Virus record (IMG/VR): IMGVR_UViG_3300044691_000566
Coordinates: 62,001-126,000 of that record
DNA length: 64,000 nucleotides
Reading direction: 5' to 3' (one strand)
DNA from: a virus
Shown: piece by piece, positions 9,294 through 56,381 of the stretch
Position numbering within the stretch: position 1 is the stretch's first letter
Layout of the letters: each line of letters starts with the position of its first letter
Program-made: the position numbers and the translations under genes
Notes under the pieces: model-generated
What the model was told of the DNA's origin: nothing
The model's database searches: none
What the model saw: only the letters and a program-made list of their open reading frames with translations

Positions 9294-9395
9294 CACGAAG
9301 GCCCCCACCCGATATGGGTGGGGGCCTTCGTGTTGTTCCCCTGCCGTGCCCTGCCATGCCCAGCCTTGCCGCGCCGTGCCGAGGACTTGACTGTA
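9294..9395 (-). ncRNA. GGNNN-repeat RNA unit, antisense to the Ig-like gene end
   Basis: Minus strand: TGATACAGT extended -10 (TACAGT is plus 9390-9395), then about 45 bases with GG every 5 nt (GGCAC, GGCGC, GGCAA, GGCTG ...), then a perfect 17-bp hairpin (9294-9310 with 9316-9332). The hairpin also faces the Ig-like gene and would terminate both directions. No good -35 box is visible. Confidence 0.55.
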
Positions 9396-9470
9396 TCAGG
9401 GGCAGAGGGGATTTGCTGGCGCTTCCGGCCCAACTGCCTGACCCGGATGGGGTATTCCTTCCCAAAAGTC

Positions 9471-10553: not shown

Positions 10554-10646
10554 GAAGCCCCCTCCGGTGATCCGGAGGGGGCTTCTCCCTGCCATGCCCT
10601 GCGCTGCCATGCCGCGCCTCGCCATGCCGTGCAAGACCTGACTTTA
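10554..10646 (-). ncRNA. GGNNN-repeat RNA unit, antisense to the dcd gene end
   Basis: Minus strand: TGATAAAGT extended -10 (TAAAGT is plus 10641-10646), eight GG pentamers, then a perfect 14-bp hairpin (10554-10567 with 10572-10585). The same hairpin would terminate dcd transcription from the plus side. Lies between dcd and the first structural gene. Confidence 0.55.
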
Positions 10647-10697
10647 TCAGTCCCATGGTTCTCCGATCGCCGCCGAATGCTGTCCTCCGGCACCCTC

Positions 10698-27871: not shown

Positions 27872-28269
27872 CCACCGCCAAGGACGAGCCGGAGGACGGC
27901 GTCCCGCAGGGGATGCTCACGCCGCCCGAGGAGGGCACCGTCCCCTACGGCGGCAAGGGCCTCACCCTGAATGCAACCGGGGACGTCCACCCCTACCAGC
28001 TCATCGAAGAGATCTACCAGCGCCTGGGCGAGCGCGGCGACTACGAAGTGGTCGTCACCGAGTCCCACGACGGCAAACAGCGCTCCGTGCACGTCCTGGG
28101 CGATGCCGACCGGGCCGTCGTGCAGGGCGTCATCGACTCCCACGACCCCGACCCCGACTACGGCCTCAGCGCCGAGGAGCGCCGCATCCAGGACCTGAAG
28201 CACCAGTTGAAGAGCGGCGCCGACCTGTCCCCCCAGGACTTGAACACCCTGATGCGCGCCATGCTCTGA
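27862..28269 (+). CDS. Hypothetical protein
   Basis: One hundred and thirty-five residues from ATG 27862, overlapping the giant gene by 10 bases. The middle (residues about 43-95) is alpha/beta ([21 protein letters not shown] ... [15 protein letters not shown]). The C-terminus is a helical pair. Probably virion-associated by position. Function unknown. Confidence 0.6.
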
Positions 28270-28273
28270 CGAC

Positions 28274-28376
28274 GAAGGGGGCGGCCGGAGCCGCCCCCTT
28301 CTCCCTGCCATGCCCAGCCATGCCGCGCCATGCCTCACCTTGCCGTGCCAGGCCATGCCCCGAGGACTTGACTATA
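28274..28376 (-). ncRNA. GGNNN-repeat RNA unit, antisense at operon end
   Basis: Minus strand: TGATATAGT extended -10 (TATAGT is plus 28371-28376), about eleven GG pentamers (GGCAT, GGCCT, GGCAC, GGCAA, GGTGA ...), then a perfect 12-bp hairpin (28274-28285 with 28290-28301) with a UCCG loop on the minus strand. It abuts the divergent promoter of the gene at 28445. Confidence 0.55.
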
Positions 28377-28383
28377 TCAGGTC

Positions 28384-28412
28384 TTGCTCTCCAACAATCC
28401 TTGGAGTACTCT
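28384..28412 (+). promoter_or_regulatory. Early-type promoter with perfect spacer inverted repeat
   Basis: TTGCTC 28384-28389 and TACTCT 28407-28412. The segment CTCCAA-CAATCC-TTGGAG (28389-28406) is a perfect 6-bp inverted repeat with 6-base centre, the clearest copy of the shared operator candidate. Confidence 0.7.
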
Positions 28413-28444
28413 GGGGGCAGTAACCGACTCCTCTGGAGGCCAAT

Positions 28445-28654
28445 GTGGCATTCTTCCTCGACCCCGAACTGGCCCGTCTCGTCGAGGGCAGTTCCTCCGG
28501 CGCCCCCGCGAAGACCGCTCCGGCCAGCGGGACCCGTCGGCCCAACAAGTTCGGGAAGAAGTGCCACGGCTGCGGGACCTGGGTCAAGCCCCAGGAGGGC
28601 TATCTCGGCAAGGACGGGGGAGCCTGGGTCGTGTACTGCACCACGTGCCCCTAG
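28445..28654 (+). CDS. Small zinc-ribbon protein
   Basis: Sixty-nine residues from GTG 28445, with TCTGGAGG at 28432-28439. A basic linker (TRRPNKFGKK) precedes a four-Cys ribbon, CHGCGTWV ... YCTTC (about residues 40-68), as in small phage nucleic-acid or protein-binding factors. Function unknown. First gene after its own promoter. Confidence 0.7.
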   Translation: MAFFLDPELARLVEGSSSGAPAKTAPASGTRRPNKFGKKCHGCGTWVKPQEGYLGKDGGAWVVYCTTCP

Positions 28655-38031: not shown

Positions 38032-39021
38032 ATGACGACTCAGACTCTCGCCGCCACCTCGTCCCTGCGCGGCCGTATCGCGCGCAAGTCCGACGACTAC
38101 GCCAACGCCATCATGGAGCGCCGCAAGAGCAACGCGCCGCTCACCCATGAGGCCAAGGTCAAGAAGATGGCGTTGATCCTCTCCGACGAGACCAGCGGCA
38201 TCCGCCGCCTGGGCGTCGGGATGGTCGGCCCCATCCAGCTCAAGCTGCGCTACCAGGGCATCACCAGGAACGTGCTGGTGGAGGACCCGGTTACCCCGGG
38301 TACCCCCGTCGAGTACGACGTCTGGGATGATCTTGGTCAGGCGTACATCATGTCCGGCACCGAGGGCGAAGTCCGTGTGACTCCGTTCGAGGGCAAGCGC
38401 GTTCCGGTGCGGTTCTTCCGTATCGCCTCGCGCCCGGCCATCCGCAAGGAGGACCTGTTCTACCTGCGTATCAACGCAGTTGAGCAGGCCCAGGACGAGA
38501 CCAAGCAGGCCATCCTCAAGCAGGAGGACACCCGCCTGCTCGTCCTGCTCCAGGCGGCGCTGACCGACTACGCCACCCGGCCGGACCACACGGTCACCCC
38601 GAACCACAACATCACCGAGGCGTCGGGCTACCTGACGCCGGGCTCGCTGTACTCGGCCGTCGCCATGACGGACATGCACGAGTTGCAGAGTGCCAGGATC
38701 TTGATCAACCCGTTCGACTTCCGGGACCTCTACCGCTGGGACATCAACCAGACCGGCTGGGCGTTCAAGGACCGGGTCGTCGCGGGCGAGACGATCACCT
38801 CGTTCGGCGAGTTCCAGATCCAGCGGTCGATCATCGTGCCGCAGGGCAAGGTCTTCCTCACCCCGGAGCCCAACTTCTTGGGCGTTTTCCCCGTTTTGTA
38901 CTCCTTGGACGTCGAGGAGAACCACATGGTGGAGGCGTTCTGGAAGGGCTGGGTGTTCGACGAGATGGTGAACATGACCATTTTGAACGCAAGGGGAATT
39001 GCCACGATTACCAAGGCTTAG
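38032..39021 (+). CDS. Major capsid protein
   Basis: A 329-residue protein from ATG 38032 (AGGAGCTGACTG upstream). Basic N-arm (RGRIARKSDDYANAIMERRK), then a beta/alpha core with EGKRVPVRFFRIASRPAIRKEDLFY, and a conserved-looking C-terminal strand series (GQFQI-like GEFQIQRSIIVPQGKVFL). Family placement rests on the gene order protease, scaffold, decoration, capsid and on similarity to major capsid proteins of actinobacterial myoviruses as I remember them. It would assemble as hexamers and pentamers of the HK97 fold. Confidence 0.82.
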   Translation: MTTQTLAATSSLRGRIARKSDDYANAIMERRKSNAPLTHEAKVKKMALILSDETSGIRRLGVGMVGPIQLKLRYQGITRNVLVEDPVTPGTPVEYDVWDDLGQAYIMSGTEGEVRVTPFEGKRVPVRFFRIASRPAIRKEDLFYLRINAVEQAQDETKQAILKQEDTRLLVLLQAALTDYATRPDHTVTPNHNITEASGYLTPGSLYSAVAMTDMHELQSARILINPFDFRDLYRWDINQTGWAFKDRVVAGETITSFGEFQIQRSIIVPQGKVFLTPEPNFLGVFPVLYSLDVEENHMVEAFWKGWVFDEMVNMTILNARGIATITKA

Positions 39022-39036: not shown

Positions 39037-39573
39037 TTAGCCCAAGTGGCCCCACCGGGCACCAGTGACGAGTCGGGAGATCGCGCCCTGGCCAACCCCG
39101 TAGACGGCGGCGAGAGCCCTCTGGCTTTCGCCGCCGTCGGCGTATCTGCGGCGTATCTCCAGAACCTGCCACTCCTCCAGCTTGGCGGCAGCGTTGCCTG
39201 ACCCTCGTGAAGAGGTGCCGTGCAGGATCTTGTCAGCTTCGTTCTCCCCAGAAGTGCCCCAGACGAGGTTCTCCTGCCGGTTGTCCGTAGAGTCACCGTT
39301 CAGGTGGCGCCCCTCCTGGCCCGGCTCCGGAAGACCCACAAAGGCCCCCAGGACGAGCTGGTGGACCAGGCGCTGGGCTCGGACACCGTCGATCGACATC
39401 ATGATGTTCAGGTAGCCCCCGCCGTGACGGCCGGGCTTGAGTATGCGGCCCTGGACGTAGTGCCGCCGGGTCTGGCGCGACAGACTGCGCACGCGGCCAA
39501 GCGACGACACCTCGTAGAACTCATCGAACTCCGGTATGGGGACCGGCTTCCACTCTTCAGTCATGCGAGGCAT
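39037..39573 (-). CDS. HNH homing endonuclease (NUMOD4-HNH type)
   Basis: A 178-residue minus-strand protein. The N-terminus WKPVPIPEFDEFYEVSSLGR is a NUMOD4 motif. HNH_3-type residues follow (LVHQLVLGAFVG ... HLNGDSTDNRQENLVWGT), and residues about 125-170 are a helix-turn-helix (EEWQVLEIRRRYADGG). It would nick or cut DNA at a target near its insertion site, copying itself into phages lacking it. It converges on the major capsid gene, 15 bases from its stop. A minus promoter with TTGACG and a spacer GATGTCAAG lies at about 39580-39602. Start could be 39573 or 39564. Confidence 0.85.
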   Translation of the reverse strand: MPRMTEEWKPVPIPEFDEFYEVSSLGRVRSLSRQTRRHYVQGRILKPGRHGGGYLNIMMSIDGVRAQRLVHQLVLGAFVGLPEPGQEGRHLNGDSTDNRQENLVWGTSGENEADKILHGTSSRGSGNAAAKLEEWQVLEIRRRYADGGESQRALAAVYGVGQGAISRLVTGARWGHLG

Positions 39574-39612: not shown

Positions 39613-39713
39613 GGCCCCCGGATTTAAAAATCCGGGGGCCGTTCCCCTGCCCAGCCATGCCACGCCCAGCCAAACCCCACCGTGCCGGGCCATACCATGA
39701 GGCCCTGACTCTA
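39613..39713 (-). ncRNA. GGNNN-repeat RNA unit, minus array unit 5
   Basis: TGATAGAGT (TAGAGT is plus 39708-39713), ten GG pentamers (GGTAT, GGCCC, GGCAC, GGTGG, GGTTT ...), then a hairpin 39613-39640 whose centre is GGATTTAAAAATCC. No -35 box of TTGACA type. Confidence 0.6.
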
Positions 39714-39728
39714 TCATCTCCAACGACT

Positions 39729-39844
39729 GAGGGGCTCCCCGTAGGAAGCCCCTCCCATGCCTTGCCACGCCGAACCGGGCCCTGCCTTGCCCTGCCAGGG
39801 CATGCCAGGGCCTTGACCCTGTCATCTCCAATGGCACCTGTCAA
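39729..39844 (-). ncRNA. GGNNN-repeat RNA unit, minus array unit 4
   Basis: Full promoter: TTGACA (plus 39839-39844), exactly 17 bases, CAGGGT (plus 39816-39821). Ten or eleven GG pentamers follow, then an 11-bp hairpin 39729-39754 closed by a C(UACG)G tetraloop. Confidence 0.65.
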
Positions 39845-39850
39845 ACGACT

Positions 39851-39973
39851 GAGGGCGCCACCCCGAAGGATGACGCCCTCCCATGCCCCGCCTGGCCCTG
39901 CCAGACCTCGCCACGCCGAGCCTCGCCCAGCCCCGCAAGACCTGACTCTGTCATCCCTGCCCGCATCTGTCAA
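39851..39973 (-). ncRNA. GGNNN-repeat RNA unit, minus array unit 3
   Basis: Full promoter: TTGACA (plus 39968-39973), 17 bases, CAGAGT (plus 39945-39950). About ten GG pentamers (GGCTG, GGCGA, GGCTC, GGCGT ...), then a 13-bp hairpin 39851-39880 with a C(UUCG)G tetraloop. Confidence 0.65.
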
Positions 39974-39977
39974 AGCT

Positions 39978-40067
39978 GAGGGCGATCACCCGTAGATGAT
40001 CGCCCTCCCATGCCCTGCCCGGCCAAGCCGAGCCGCGCCATGCCTAGCCCTGCAAGACCTGACTCTA
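39978..40067 (-). ncRNA. GGNNN-repeat RNA unit, minus array unit 2
   Basis: TGATAGAGT (TAGAGT is plus 40062-40067), eight or nine GG pentamers, then a hairpin 39978-40007 with stem GAGGGCGATCATC and a UACG loop. The stem is nearly the same as that of the plus-strand unit at 44710, so the two units are related copies. Confidence 0.6.
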
Positions 40068-40081
40068 TCAGCCCCAATGAC

Positions 40082-40179
40082 GAAGGGGCCCGAAGGACCC
40101 CTTCTCCCTGCCCTGCCCGGCCTAGCCCCACCGCGCCAGACCTTGCCCAGCCGTGCCTAGCCACGCGGCCCTGACTCTA
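40082..40179 (-). ncRNA. GGNNN-repeat RNA unit, minus array unit 1
   Basis: TGATAGAGT begins inside the stop codon of the upstream minus gene (TAGAGT is plus 40174-40179). Eleven GG pentamers (GGCTA, GGCAC, GGCTG, GGCAA, GGTCT ...) lead to a hairpin at 40082-40104 with a UUCG loop and one bulged base. Confidence 0.6.
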
Positions 40180-40494
40180 TCAGGACTTCTCCGGCGTCGG
40201 CTTGGGCGTGTGGATGCCGGTCTTCCGGACCCACCCGGCCTCGAAATCCTCCACCTGGTCCTTCGTCCACATGCGGCCCATGCGCAGCACCCGCCAGGGC
40301 TGGCCCAGGCGCCCGGTGGCCAGCTCGTCGGCCCGCTGCTTGGTCACGCCCCAGCGGTCGGCCAGCTCGGCGAGCCCGAAGACCTGCATGTCCTCCAGGA
40401 GTTCCGCCACCCGCTGGAGGACCACGTCCTCGGCCTGCTCGCTCAGGTGGTCGTCGAAGGTGGGGGTACCCGGGAGTTCACGCTGATCGTTCAT
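40180..40494 (-). CDS. Helix-turn-helix DNA-binding protein
   Basis: A minus-strand protein of 104 residues if it starts at ATG 40494 (MNDQRELPG), or 110 from ATG 40512. Neither has a strong ribosome site. Residues about 45-95 are a MerR/excisionase-like wing-helix: FGLAELADRWGVTKQRADEL followed by GRMWTKDQVEDF. These proteins bind operator DNA. It is the only clear stand-alone DNA-binding regulator in the window and lies directly upstream of the five RNA units. A GACGATGTCAAG sequence at about 40516-40527 (minus) may be its own operator. Confidence 0.75.
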   Translation of the reverse strand: MNDQRELPGTPTFDDHLSEQAEDVVLQRVAELLEDMQVFGLAELADRWGVTKQRADELATGRLGQPWRVLRMGRMWTKDQVEDFEAGWVRKTGIHTPKPTPEKS

Positions 40495-44688: not shown

Positions 44689-44709
44689 AACCGGACATTA
44701 CGGCCATGA

Positions 44710-44810
44710 TAGGGTCAGGTCCTGCAAGGCACGGCAGGGCTAGGCGAGGTCTGGCAGGGTACGGCTGGGCACGGCAGGGGGAGGGCGATCACCTACGGGT
44801 GGTCGCCCTC
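44710..44810 (+). ncRNA. GGNNN-repeat RNA unit, plus array unit 1
   Basis: TGATAGGGT (TAGGGT 44710-44715), eleven GG pentamers (GGCAC, GGCAG, GGCTA, GGCGA, GGTCT ...), then a 13-bp hairpin 44781-44810 closed by C(UACG)G, followed by CGTTGTT. Confidence 0.65.
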
Positions 44811-44815
44811 CGTTG

Positions 44816-44930
44816 TTGACAGATCCAGTAGGACATGACAGAGTCAAGTCGTCCTCATTCACCTGGGGCGGGCGTCGGTCGATCCGTGGTGCTCCCTTTC
44901 GCAACAAGGGCACGGATTGACCGACGTCTT
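44816..44930 (+). ncRNA. Long-hairpin RNA unit without GGNNN repeat
   Basis: TTGACA 44816-44821, 17 bases, CAGAGT 44839-44844, then CAAGTC. About 28 bases later a 16-bp stem, CGTCGGTCGATCCGTG 44873-44888 with CACGGATTGACCGACG 44911-44926 (one G-U), continues into an inner helix in the 22-base loop. No GG repeat. It shares the promoter but not the body of its neighbours. Confidence 0.6.
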
Positions 44931-44953
44931 TGTACTCCCGTCGGTAACCCTGA

Positions 44954-45038
44954 TAGAGTCAAGTCCTCGGCACGGCTAGGTAGGGCAGGGTTTGGTAGGG
45001 CAGGGAGAAGGGGTCCTCTACGGAGGACCCCTTCGTTT
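44954..45038 (+). ncRNA. GGNNN-repeat RNA unit, plus array unit 2
   Basis: TGATAGAGT (TAGAGT 44954-44959), a TTGTAC box 18 bases upstream, CAAGTCC, seven or eight GG pentamers (GGCAC, GGCTA, GGTAG, GGCAG ...), then a perfect 12-bp hairpin 45007-45034 with C(UACG)G and CGTTTTG after it. Confidence 0.65.
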
Positions 45039-45090
45039 TGCCCCCGCAGGCCCGGTAGAGTCCGGCCTCCACCGTCAGAGAGGACCCTCA

Positions 45091-45300
45091 ATGCCCGACA
45101 GCGAGATCATCAGGGACTGGTACACCTCCAGCGCCTGCGGGGCGAACAACTCCTGCCTGGAGGCCCGCACTTACGCCGACGGGTCGGTCGAGATCCGCAA
45201 CTCCCAGGACCCGAAGGGCACCCTCCTCCGGTTCACCGAGGACGAATGGTCCGCCTTCCTCGTGGGCGCCCGCGCCGGGGAGTTTTCCACCGGGGCATGA
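45091..45300 (+). CDS. DUF397 domain protein
   Basis: Sixty-nine residues from ATG 45091, after the leader CCGTCAGAGA (45072-45081) and AGAGAGGA. The whole chain is a DUF397 domain: WYTSSACGANNSCLEARTY, then VEIRNSQDPKG, then LLRFTEDEWSAFLVGARAGEF, matching the family pattern W-x-K-S-S ... C-V-E-V ... V-R-D-S-K-D-P ... F-x-x-x-E-W-x-A-F-x-x-G-x-x-x-G-E-F. In Streptomyces these small acidic proteins are encoded beside XRE-type regulators and modulate them (WhiJ-like systems). The phage copy lacks an XRE neighbour, so it may act on host regulators. Confidence 0.88.
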   Translation: MPDSEIIRDWYTSSACGANNSCLEARTYADGSVEIRNSQDPKGTLLRFTEDEWSAFLVGARAGEFSTGA

Positions 45301-45305
45301 CCTGA

Positions 45306-45386
45306 TAGAGTCAAGTCCTCGGCTAGGCATGGCGGGGCTCGGCTTGGCACGGCAGGGAGAAGGGGTCCACTACGGTGGACCCCTTC
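45306..45386 (+). ncRNA. GGNNN-repeat RNA unit, plus array unit 3
   Basis: TGATAGAGT (TAGAGT 45306-45311) just after the DUF397 stop, CAAGTCC, seven or eight GG pentamers (GGCTA, GGCAT, GGCGG, GGCTC ...), then a perfect 12-bp hairpin 45359-45386 with C(UACG)G. Confidence 0.65.
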
Positions 45387-45402
45387 GTCGTTGGGAGGAC
45401 GG

Positions 45403-45582
45403 ATGCGCATCGGTCAGGAGCCGCCCCGGCGGGAGAAGCTGCGGGGCTACGTGATCACCGGCTGCATCAAGTGCGGCGGCCGGTCCAAGTGGATCCGGCG
45501 TGGACCGCACGACTGCTGCTTGCGCAAGGACATGAGCCGGGCCCGGGAGAAGCAGGAATGGCGCCGGACCCTCAGGGATTGA
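45403..45582 (+). CDS. Small basic zinc-type protein
   Basis: Fifty-nine residues from ATG 45403 with GGGAGG at 45393-45398. Cys at CIKC and CC (about residues 21-24 and 38-39) and many Arg/Lys suggest a zinc-bound nucleic-acid-binding peptide. It sits in the 16-base gap after one RNA-unit hairpin and overlaps the next unit's TGATAGAGT. Confidence 0.6.
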   Translation: MRIGQEPPRREKLRGYVITGCIKCGGRSKWIRRGPHDCCLRKDMSRAREKQEWRRTLRD

Positions 45583-45678
45583 TAGAGTCAAGTCCCTGGC
45601 AAGGCTGGCCAAGGCCCGGTAGGGCACGGCTTGGCCCGGCAGGGCAGGGAGAAGAGCCCCACTACGGTGGGGCTCTTC
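45583..45678 (+). ncRNA. GGNNN-repeat RNA unit, plus array unit 4
   Basis: TGATAGAGT starts in the stop codon of the preceding gene (TAGAGT 45583-45588). CAAGTCCC, ten or eleven GG pentamers (GGCAA, GGCTG, one GCCAA, GGCCC, GGTAG ...), then a perfect 12-bp hairpin 45651-45678 with C(UACG)G. Confidence 0.65.
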
Positions 45679-45682
45679 GTCG

Positions 45683-45816
45683 TTGACGGACCCCGCAGTT
45701 CATGACAGAGTCAAGTCCTGCATGGCCGGGCGGGACGTGGCGCGGTGTGGCATGGCTAGGTAGGGCCGGGCAGGGCATGGGCTGTGGAGATGGGGCCTCT
45801 TTCGGGAGGCCCCATC
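45683..45816 (+). ncRNA. GGNNN-repeat RNA unit, plus array unit 5
   Basis: Full promoter: TTGACG 45683-45688, 17 bases, CAGAGT 45706-45711. CAAGTCCTG, about twelve GG pentamers, then an 11-bp hairpin 45789-45816 with a UUCG-containing loop. Confidence 0.65.
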
Positions 45817-45823
45817 GTCTTGA

Positions 45824-45918
45824 TAGAGTCAAGTCCCTGGCTGGGCTTGGTATGGCTGGGCTTGGCGTGGTGAGGCATGGCAGGGGGAGAGGGCCCGGAT
45901 TTTTAAATCCGGGCCCTC
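45824..45918 (+). ncRNA. GGNNN-repeat RNA unit, plus array unit 6
   Basis: TGATAGAGT (TAGAGT 45824-45829), CAAGTCCC, nine or ten GG pentamers (GGCTG, GGCTT, GGTAT, GGCTG ...), then a 14-bp hairpin 45889-45918 with an ATTTTTAAAT centre, like that of minus unit 5. Confidence 0.65.
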
Positions 45919-45928
45919 CGCCATATGG

Positions 45929-45974
45929 TTGACACTCCAGGAATCCTTGGAGTACAGTCACCTTCGCCAGAGAA
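45929..45974 (+). promoter_or_regulatory. Early-type promoter with spacer repeat and leader
   Basis: TTGACA 45929-45934, 18 bases, TACAGT 45953-45958. The spacer CTCCAGGAATCCTTGGAG carries the shared inverted repeat. The leader CGCCAGAGAA follows at 45965-45974. Confidence 0.8.
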
Positions 45975-45996: not shown

Positions 45997-46575
45997 ATGC
46001 AGGTCCGTTTGACTCTTACCGGAACCACATCGCTGCTCATGCACAACGCGCGGCTGTCCGACCCGTTGGACCCCTACACCAAGATGCTCAAGGCCATCTC
46101 CTCCAAGCGCACCAAGACGGAGGACGACCACGACGACATGGCGCGCGTCGAATTCCTCGGCGGCCTGTACTTCGACCCGGAGGCCGGGCCGTACGTTCCC
46201 GGCGTCAACGTCCACCGCTGCCTGGTGGAGGGCGCCAAGCTCAACAAGCTGGGCCGCCACGTGGAGCGCGGCATCATCGCCCTGGACGAGATCTGCCCGC
46301 TGGGCTACGCGGGGCCGCGCACGGAGGAGGCGCTGTGGAAGGACAAAAACTTCGTCTCCCGGCTGTCCGTCGGCGTCACCACCTCGCGCGTCATGCGCAC
46401 GCGCCCCGAATTCCCGGTGTGGGGCCTGGAGGCCGACATGCTGGTGGACACCGGCCAGCTCGACCTGGAGCAGGTCCGCACCATCGCCGAGAAGTCCGGA
46501 CAGATGATCGGTCTCGGCGACTACCGTCCCCGGTTCGGGCGATTCACCGTCGAGGTCGTCGAACTCCAGGGCTGA
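45997..46575 (+). CDS. Conserved phage/prophage protein of unknown function
   Basis: A 192-residue protein from ATG 45997 with CAGGGAGGG at 45985-45993. Its phrases GTTSLLMHNARL, DPYTKMLKAISSKRTKT, GPYVPGVNVHRCLVEGAKL, TSRVMRTRP and GLGDYRPRFGRF recur in a widespread phage family that I remember but whose function I do not know. The strand-helix order and a late Gly-rich loop recall RAMP/Cas7-like RNA-binding folds, but that is speculation. It is usually followed, as here, by a gene of the type at 46615. Confidence 0.7.
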   Translation: MQVRLTLTGTTSLLMHNARLSDPLDPYTKMLKAISSKRTKTEDDHDDMARVEFLGGLYFDPEAGPYVPGVNVHRCLVEGAKLNKLGRHVERGIIALDEICPLGYAGPRTEEALWKDKNFVSRLSVGVTTSRVMRTRPEFPVWGLEADMLVDTGQLDLEQVRTIAEKSGQMIGLGDYRPRFGRFTVEVVELQG

Positions 46576-46614: not shown

Positions 46615-47178
46615 ATGGCCGCCAAGCCGTTCGAGCCCAAGGGCGATGTCGCCCGCTGGGTCCCCGTCTACGAGAATCTGCGCGACCTGGAGCCGGGGGT
46701 GCTGGTCACGTACGAGCAGCTCTCGGAGTGGGCCGGAGTCGATGTCCGGCGCGACCGCAGCCCCCTCGTGCAGGCCGAGGACAAGCTCCTGAAGGAGCAC
46801 GGGCGCGGCGTCGCCAACGAGCGGGGCGTGGGGTACCGGATCATGCTGGCCTCCGAACACGGTGAGGCCGCCCGGCGCCAGACCCGGAAGGCCGACCGCC
46901 GGATCAGGAAGGCCATAACCCTTCTGACCGTGGCCGACCGCAATCACCTGACCCCGCAGCAGCGGCAGAAGTACGAGAGTCAGGCCGGGGCTCTCCAGGC
47001 CGTCCGGGACATGACCAACCGCCTGGCGCGGCGGACGGCCGCGCTGGAGGAGGGTCTGAAAGCGGTCCGTCGGGAGACCAAGGAGACCACGGCCGGTCTG
47101 TCCGACCGCTTGGAGCGGCTGGAGGCCCGGTTCGCGAACGTTCCGGGCGATGCCCCGGCGGACAGCACCACGACCTGA
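46615..47178 (+). CDS. Conserved partner protein, winged-helix-like with coiled coil
   Basis: A 187-residue protein from ATG 46615 with AAGGAGGAC at 46604-46612. Residues 15-80 look like a winged helix (YENLRDLEPGVLVTYEQLSE ... GVGYRIMLASEH). Residues 85-175 are Arg/Lys-rich helix and coiled coil (RLARRTAALEEGLKAVRRE). A CCGCCAGAAT leader (46578-46587) lies between the two genes. Found paired with the preceding family in other phages. Function unknown. Confidence 0.65.
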   Translation: MAAKPFEPKGDVARWVPVYENLRDLEPGVLVTYEQLSEWAGVDVRRDRSPLVQAEDKLLKEHGRGVANERGVGYRIMLASEHGEAARRQTRKADRRIRKAITLLTVADRNHLTPQQRQKYESQAGALQAVRDMTNRLARRTAALEEGLKAVRRETKETTAGLSDRLERLEARFANVPGDAPADSTTT

Positions 47179-49082: not shown

Positions 49083-49087
49083 CCTGA

Positions 49088-49170
49088 TAGAGTCAGGGCC
49101 TCGGTATGGCTGGGCCGGGCTCGGCTGGTCGGGGCATGGCAGGGGAGGCCCCCACTTCGGTGGGGGCCTC
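49088..49170 (+). ncRNA. GGNNN-repeat RNA unit, isolated plus copy
   Basis: TGATAGAGT (TAGAGT 49088-49093) right after the spike stop, then CAGGGCC, eight or nine GG pentamers (GGTAT, GGCTG, GGCCG, GGCTC ...), then a perfect 11-bp hairpin 49145-49170 with C(UUCG)G. Confidence 0.6.
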
Positions 49171-55918: not shown

Positions 55919-56381
55919 CGAAGCGGTCGGAGCTGAGTAGACCCCGGTTGCGCAGCTCCATGCAGGTGCGGCAGCGGCGGCTCCCGTCGGAACGGATCAT
56001 GGTGTTGGAGGAGGTGAAGGCGTGGCCACGCAGACAGTGCGTCTTGCGCGCGTTGAGCGCGCACACGCCGTTGCCCCGTATGACGTTGACGGTCCCCGGC
56101 ACGATCTCCATGTGGGCCGTGAAGTTGACGCAGTGCTTCATGGTGCAGCCCCAGGCCCGCACATGGTCGATCGTCATATGATCCGGGACGGCCTTGACGA
56201 AGTGGTGAAAGCCCCAGCGGTGGGCGGGCCAGATGCGGCCCTCCACCCGGAACTGGCCGTACCCCCACCGATCGGTGCCCGCCGTCCACGGCCAGCACTC
56301 GGTGCTTCCGCGCCGGTCCACATGGGACCAGAAGCGGGCTTCGTCGTCTCCTTTGATGAAGGCGCGCGAGAGCTTGGTCAT
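55908..56381 (-). CDS. HNH homing endonuclease
   Basis: A minus-strand protein, 157 residues from ATG 56381 (MTKLSRAFIK). It could extend upstream to ATG at 56453. Core: CWPWTAGTDRWGYGQF, a dispersed AHRWGFHHF, then IDHVRAWGCTMKHCVNFTAH and the N-V-I-R-G-N-G stretch, a typical phage HNH_3-like nuclease, then C-x-R-G-H ... CRTC zinc pair. It sits between tube and chaperone genes on the opposite strand, the normal place for a free-standing homing nuclease. Confidence 0.88.
   Translation of the reverse strand: MTKLSRAFIKGDDEARFWSHVDRRGSTECWPWTAGTDRWGYGQFRVEGRIWPAHRWGFHHFVKAVPDHMTIDHVRAWGCTMKHCVNFTAHMEIVPGTVNVIRGNGVCALNARKTHCLRGHAFTSSNTMIRSDGSRRCRTCMELRNRGLLSSDRFATC

Follow-up and report, generated by a model that had tools for sequence, protein, structure and literature searches.

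Judging from its sequence, the pentamer-repeat array at 44710-45918 of the window (the whole 64,000-nucleotide stretch analyzed, bases 62001-126000 of a 159,746-base actinophage contig with a GC content of 67%) almost certainly consists of vrRNA genes of a type II-like VIPR system in a large actinobacterial phage. This kind of system is already known, only since 2026, from a preprint by one laboratory (PMC13142463), whose main text presents VIPR as phage-encoded and CRISPR-ancestor-like, with a ~20-kDa single-RRM RAMP protein carrying a G-loop (Vipr), an accessory protein (Vap) and vrRNAs. According to the same text, type II vrRNAs have 9-16 YNNGG repeats with hypervariable NN and a structured 3' tail, and their NN letters read double-stranded DNA with a 1-nt skip; in the SUSP1 experiments described there, Vipr bound vrRNA, the NN pairs read DNA and transcription was blocked. 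The preliminary description of our stretch knew of no phage family with this design, which the preprint's main text now supplies. The following features of type II VIPR were found here: a Vipr protein, an adjacent vap1 gene, YNNGG vrRNAs, a structured 3' tail, the 1-nt skip and a skipped base at the wobble position.

The whole contig was scanned on both strands for GG doublets at a 5-nt period (at least 8 GGs, at most one miss). This period was found at 20 places, against at most 3 per period and strand for the other periods tested from 2 to 12, and in each of the 20 units a promoter is followed by a (GG-pyrimidine-NN) pentamer tract and a hairpin. Fifteen units lie within the window and six within 44710-45918. 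The tracts occur on both strands, spread over ~93 kb, and are either clustered (44713-45885 on the plus strand and 40162-39645 on the minus strand) or solitary (in the window at 9380, about 10630 and 28359 on the minus strand and 49103 on the plus strand); five more lie outside the window, at contig positions 56033, 142657, 143797, 144363 and 149190. The six units reported earlier are thus real, each with a box, a GG tract and then a hairpin of 12-14 bp, and belong to a family wider than had been claimed. Their tracts contain 8-14 GGs (one missed GG allowed) and not 7-12.

Cassette 1 (44707-44811, plus strand) has the box TGATAGGGT at 44707, a tract at 44713-44784 with the guide AA AC AG TA GA CT AG AC TG AC, the end pentamers and a hairpin at 44780-44811. 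Four plus-strand cassettes carry the box TGATAGAGT: cassette 2 (44951-45034; box 44951, tract 44969-45005, guide TC AC TA AG AG TT, hairpin 45007-45034), cassette 3 (45303-45386; box 45303, tract 45321-45357, guide TC TA AT GG TC TT, hairpin 45359-45386), cassette 4 (45580-45678; box 45580, tract 45598-45649, guide CT AA TG AA CC AG AC TT CC, hairpin 45651-45678) and cassette 6 (45821-45918; box 45821, tract 45839-45885, guide CT TG TT AT TG TT GT GA, hairpin 45889-45918). Cassette 5 (45683-45816, plus strand) has a TTGACG -35 element, a 17-nt spacer and a CAGAGT -10 element (box 45703), a tract at 45724-45780 with the guide AT CG GG GT GC GT AT TA AG CG and a hairpin at 45789-45816. With six guide NNs and two end pentamers, cassettes 2 and 3 reach 8 GGs, fewer than the 9-16 repeats of the preprint. 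The solitary cassette 7 (49085-49170, plus strand) has its tract at 49103-49144, the guide TC AT TG CG TC TG GG and a hairpin after the tract. The minus-strand cluster is formed by units at 40106-40182 (tract 40162-40106, guide GT TA AC TG AA CT GC GG TA CG), 40003-40070 (tract 40059-40003), 39876-39953 (tract 39942-39876, promoter TTGACA-N17-CAGAGT), 39750-39824 (tract 39806-39750, promoter TTGACA-N17-CAGGGT) and 39645-39716 (tract 39696-39645), and the remaining minus-strand units are at 28303-28379 (tract 28359-28303), 10587-10649 (tract about 10638-10587) and 9339-9398 (tract 9380-9339).

Across the repeats the base after GG is C in 0.83, T in 0.15, G in 0.02 and A in 0.00, so that with a pyrimidine in 98% of cases the repeat unit is GGY-NN. 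The spacer triplets had been described as varying freely; only their last two bases do. The last two pentamers of each tract are near-constant, CA[T/G/C] and then CAG, and all 20 tracts are followed by a hairpin of ~10-17 bp, often with a UNCG loop, the stem sequence of which differs between units. A TGn[T/C]AnnnT box precedes all 20. Where the -10 box is of the C type (CAGAGT, CAGGGT), a TTGACA-like -35 element is present at a 17-nt spacing (3/3), and where it is an extended -10 box of the T type (TGATAGAGT) no such element is found at 17 nt (0/17), which is the compensation expected of sigma-70-type promoters. This anatomy agrees with the earlier prediction of short RNAs of about 80-110 nt with promoters of their own, and the vrRNAs are probably expressed in this phage. 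An Rfam scan of the window matched no family, a tRNA search gave none, and a nucleotide search against named relatives matched only the capsid gene of Rhodococcus phage E3.

Other features are interspersed with the cassettes. As had been noted, a DUF397 gene (PF04149, E 1e-14; 45091-45300, plus strand) and a small Cys-containing protein gene (45403-45582, plus strand) sit between units of the array; copies of the former are found in many siblings with and without VIPR, and 64% identical copies of the latter in two VIPR-less siblings (G001, G013). At 44816-44945 (plus strand) a TTGACA-N17-CAGAGT promoter of the vrRNA kind (promoter copy 44816-44844) precedes an RNA that lacks GG repeats and has a very long stem (MFE -45.9 kcal/mol, z -3.6); beyond the promoter stretch, no second copy was present in the contig or in the sibling sequences searched. 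An HNH endonuclease gene (39037-39573, minus strand) lies between the capsid gene and the minus-strand cluster.

Directly after the array, the gene at 45997-46575 (plus strand) encodes a RAMP/Cas7-like protein of 192 aa with the G-loop GLGDYRPRFGRF, which is 38% identical over 187 aa to the Vipr of phage SUSP1 (E 2e-49) and belongs to the same phrog_4652. The G-loop residues and an R-P-x-F-x-x-W motif are invariant across 12 family members. A Pfam search found no family for Vipr. Its AlphaFold2 model (18 aligned relatives) reached a pLDDT of 94.9, and in Foldseek every best PDB match of this model was a CRISPR RAMP, most often Csm3 or type VII Cas7, with a TM of about 0.5, as expected for distant relatives. 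The next gene, at 46615-47178 (plus strand), is vap1-like and encodes 187 aa; its product matches phrog_5926 (E 6e-9), which it shares with SUSP1 Vap1, and is weakly similar to that protein by pairwise BLAST (27% identity over 86 aa, E 6e-6). The SUSP1 genes were taken as KT454805 28474-29061 (vipr) and 28031-28471 (vap1), assigned here by their place between GG tracts and by homology, as the preprint's main text prints no accessions for them. Relatives of this Vipr are encoded by the cultured Gordonia phages MakoManhole and Trine and by Mycobacterium phage LittleE. Vipr proteins 50-54% identical to ours are also encoded in the bacterial genomes of Streptomyces sp. NBC_01549 and Planomonospora venezuelensis, probably in prophages, and their presence in two actinomycetes suggests an actinomycete host range.

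The fold and the periodic, subunit-paced reading of a guide are reminiscent of class 1 CRISPR effectors (Cas7/Csm3 RAMPs). In contrast to those systems, no cas genes and no identical spaced repeats are found: only vipr and vap1 directly follow the array, and a repeat search returned GG-pentamer and box families and no CRISPR-type array. The guide letters here are dinucleotides inside each repeat, with one base skipped per two read.

This reading code was examined by comparing the guides of the phage group with group DNA at skips of 0-3 and with NN-shuffled controls. In 1.23 Mb of group DNA, a skip of 1 gave 283 strong matches and skips of 0, 2 and 3 and the shuffled guides gave 0-3; in 2.9 Mb the figures were 279 and 1-9. 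Because many skip-1 matches represent one site in homologous genes and are not independent, the number of guide-target families is the decisive count. The first target scans, which demanded near-full matches in about 1.3 Mb, found nothing convincing since the last two pentamers are constant and lie outside the guide; run-based scoring then revealed targets. Among the guides of the window, the minus-strand one at 40162-40106 decodes as VYT(C/W)(N/K)LAGYR. Its 8-NN core matches 21 stretches in viral contigs, 20 of which belong to one gene family with (V)YTWNLAGYR, and seven of these 20 fit all ten guide NNs. The family is a TROVE/Ro-like RNA-binding protein (PF05731) encoded by many Streptomyces and Gordonia phages; in the named phages of these two groups that were checked, the site matches only 15-18 of the 20 guide bases, and a search of our contig revealed no TROVE gene. 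A partial match of the same guide to dnaE (G000 2631; score 6) was dropped once the exact TROVE family had been found. One viral contig (L333) combines the Ro-like target gene with a Vipr-like match (HMM E 4e-10) and is possibly a target that itself carries VIPR.

The second secure target family belongs to cassette 5 (45724-45780), whose guide decodes antisense as RLY(I/M)TATPR(I/M). The exact matches in viral contigs number 25 and without exception code for RLYMTATPRI antisense; of the four viral proteins profiled, two are type ISP restriction-modification enzymes and the other two are DEAD helicases with HA domains. Among 217 actinomycete genomes the guide has nine exact places in eight genomes; seven of the proteins were profiled (five type ISP enzymes and two HA helicases) and the eighth is ISP-like by sequence. 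As a background check on these nine places, three other 20-base guide patterns were searched in 247 actinomycete genomes with one mismatch allowed, and each gave none. The core GT GC GT AT TA AG also occurs in siblings G020 and L009, in differently framed guides, so the RLYMTATPRI target seems to matter. In both target families the sites are read in codon phase, sense or antisense, with the skipped base at the codon wobble position.

Secure target families were thus obtained for two of the 20 guides. The guide of cassette 1 had no exact target in viral contigs. That of cassette 4 (45598) had one, in a contig (L373) of 48% GC where it would read GNVLGFQFR antisense; another frame, ...DVAETVMWVLNQ..., looks like the gene, and the match was judged a chance one on an estimate of 1-2 matches for an 18-base pattern. 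Partial matches of the guide at contig position 149190 to IAFL(D/E)V were left out of the target count.

These results bear on the idea that a TRAP-like RNA-binding protein forming rings or filaments binds the tracts as arrays of sites, or that they are decoy (sponge) RNAs, the NN letters being uninformative. The trp RNA-binding attenuation protein recognizes sites with a period of about 5 nt, and a conserved doublet at this spacing does resemble such sites; the many copies, their own promoters and the terminator-like hairpins would also fit this idea. TRAP sites, however, have a (G/U)AG core in a regulatory leader RNA and bind a protein unrelated to Vipr, whereas the repeat here is GGY, the cassettes stand alone and the linked protein is a Cas7-like RAMP. 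Moreover, the NN order decodes to exact matches in conserved genes at skip 1 only, and these are lost on shuffling. We consider this explanation very improbable. The variable NN letters are best read as guide dinucleotides that carry the information content and not as neutral spacers, and the regular recurrence of GGY is most likely set by a repeating protein subunit rather than by RNA shape in itself. The earlier proposal of selection on RNA (or DNA) rather than on coding is in line with vrRNAs, but its emphasis on shape probably is not.

Units of this kind depend on vipr. Viral contigs scanned blind for 11 GGs with a period of 5 gave at least 120 stretches, and among the matches listed a Vipr homologue was found at 67 of 90 loci with perfect GGY tracts against 1 of 60 control loci; several of the Vipr-less loci among the 90 are short fragments. 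Tracts of GG pentamers are widespread in viral contigs with a GC content of 37-71% (L017-L136); in some, such as L044, about 20 nt separate the end of the tract from a start codon, and many arrays in the listed contigs are split by GGCA(GGC) phase slips. We also gathered 80 relatives through the capsid protein, a group that takes in cluster C-type mycobacteriophages, Gordonia phage Skog and Rhodococcus phage E3; our phage is a sibling of E3 and of the cluster C mycobacteriophages. Twenty sequences of this group were compared over their full length or a long part of it: Vipr is present in six, which have 20, 12, 15, 18, 4 and 6 tracts, and absent from the other 14, which have no tracts. The 5-nt GG period, whose loss in close relatives had been named as evidence against an RNA family, is kept in relatives. 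Two siblings of the same capsid family (G017 and G021, or L176 and L161) have only a distant Vipr (E about 1e-9), yet carry 18 and 6 tracts; within a single group of phages, vipr may have been exchanged for a different type.

The same comparison tells against attenuator leaders acting in cis on the genes that follow them, an alternative offered in the preliminary description. The units do lie between genes and end in terminator-like hairpins, but several adjoin one another head to tail without an intervening gene, others are solitary elsewhere in the contig, and their presence follows vipr and not any neighboring gene. Each tract has a promoter before it and a terminator-like hairpin after it, and vipr has a promoter-like site of its own (TTGACA-N17-TACAGT at 45929) after the last hairpin; we regard this alternative as extremely improbable. 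Equally improbable are DNA-level sites for replication or packaging (also proposed earlier), or G-quadruplex or recombination signals, which would suit multi-copy, GG-rich, intergenic elements, since the tracts are strictly dependent on vipr, close siblings without vipr having none despite up to 96% identity of the capsid protein, and promoter and hairpin occur in fixed order at each copy.

As vrRNA genes of a VIPR system, the units could also be followed among siblings, several of which have guides against genes of this phage group. The guide of L138 and G019 matches the major capsid gene at 9/9 NN, our phage included (predicted target site 38328-38354, minus strand, 18/18 guide bases); that of L139 matches another capsid site at up to 11/11 NN; and that of L161 matches a third at 9/9 NN, with a near-target here at 38446-38472 (plus strand, 17/18 bases). 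The guide of L136 and L143 matches the vipr gene of siblings at 8/8 NN and has a near-target at the start of our vipr (46029-46052, minus strand, 15/16 bases). The G019 guide fits 18/18 in most other phages and 15/18 in its own capsid gene. The L139 guide fits from 22/22 to 19/22 in most others and 18/22 in its own phage, tied worst with G019 and L143. The L161 guide fits 16-18/18 in siblings and 15/18 in its own phage, with only the distant E3 lower. Each of the three capsid guides therefore fits the capsid gene of its own phage about worst, a pattern that would be consistent with self-avoidance. The guides of our phage had four strong partial matches in its own genome against 15.4 for shuffled guides (sd 5.7; 1 of 40 shuffles as low), a depletion that is suggestive only.

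Compared with the type II VIPR of the Escherichia phage SUSP1 (KT454805), the system described here shares the Vipr homology, the Vap1 PHROG, the GGY/NN tandem repeats, predicted RNAs of ~100 nt with a structured 3' tail (of the pseudoknot type in SUSP1), the 1-nt skip code with a wobble skip base and guides against rival phages. It differs in its layout, with 20 cassettes over about 93 kb on both strands, each with its own promoter and a simple hairpin, where SUSP1 has four RNAs beside the operon. It also differs in its high-GC actinobacterial phage background and in its targets, which are sibling capsid genes, Ro-like genes and a restriction/helicase motif.

By analogy with the SUSP1 experiments of the preprint, RNP assembly, DNA binding and repression would be expected in our phage. 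Each cassette would be autonomous, a sigma-70-like promoter (extended -10 TGnTAnnnT or TTGACA-N17-CAGAGT) starting an RNA near the first YNN that would consist of 6-12 GGY-NN guide pentamers, the two near-constant pentamers and the hairpin, which probably terminates transcription and caps the RNA. Vipr may coat the tract with one subunit per pentamer, gripping GGY and presenting NN; the NN pairs would then read double-stranded DNA while skipping one base, in most cases the wobble base of a codon, and the complex would block transcription of the target gene with the assistance of Vap1. The targets suggest two uses, one against related or co-infecting phages (capsid, vipr and Ro-like genes) and possibly another in silencing restriction enzymes or helicases in the host or in resident elements. 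The latter is suggested by one guide, whose target could equally be in a prophage or plasmid. We put forward tentatively, and as somewhat doubtful, a fuller scenario of RNA-guided silencing as both counter-defense and a weapon against rivals, in which the 45724 guide would silence either HA helicases or type ISP restriction-modification genes, whether of the host or of resident elements, other guides would hit sibling capsid and vipr genes, and capsid-targeting phages would be protected by substitutions in their own sites.

The main text of PMC13142463 makes no mention of capsid, restriction enzymes or self-avoidance. As far as that text shows, what is new here is the set of 20 guides in genome-dispersed, stand-alone promoter/hairpin cassettes of a large actinophage, together with the list of targets, the restriction/helicase guide shared with siblings and the putative capsid self-avoidance. 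The one-base-skip code is supported independently, from sequence and controls, in a phage group and host phylum other than the tested cases of the preprint. The system also yields a readable target list: a Ro-like RNA-binding protein of phages, a restriction/helicase motif against which three sibling phages carry guides, and sibling capsid and vipr genes with what appear to be self-avoiding changes. Testable predictions follow on phage-phage conflict and RNA-guided counter-defense.
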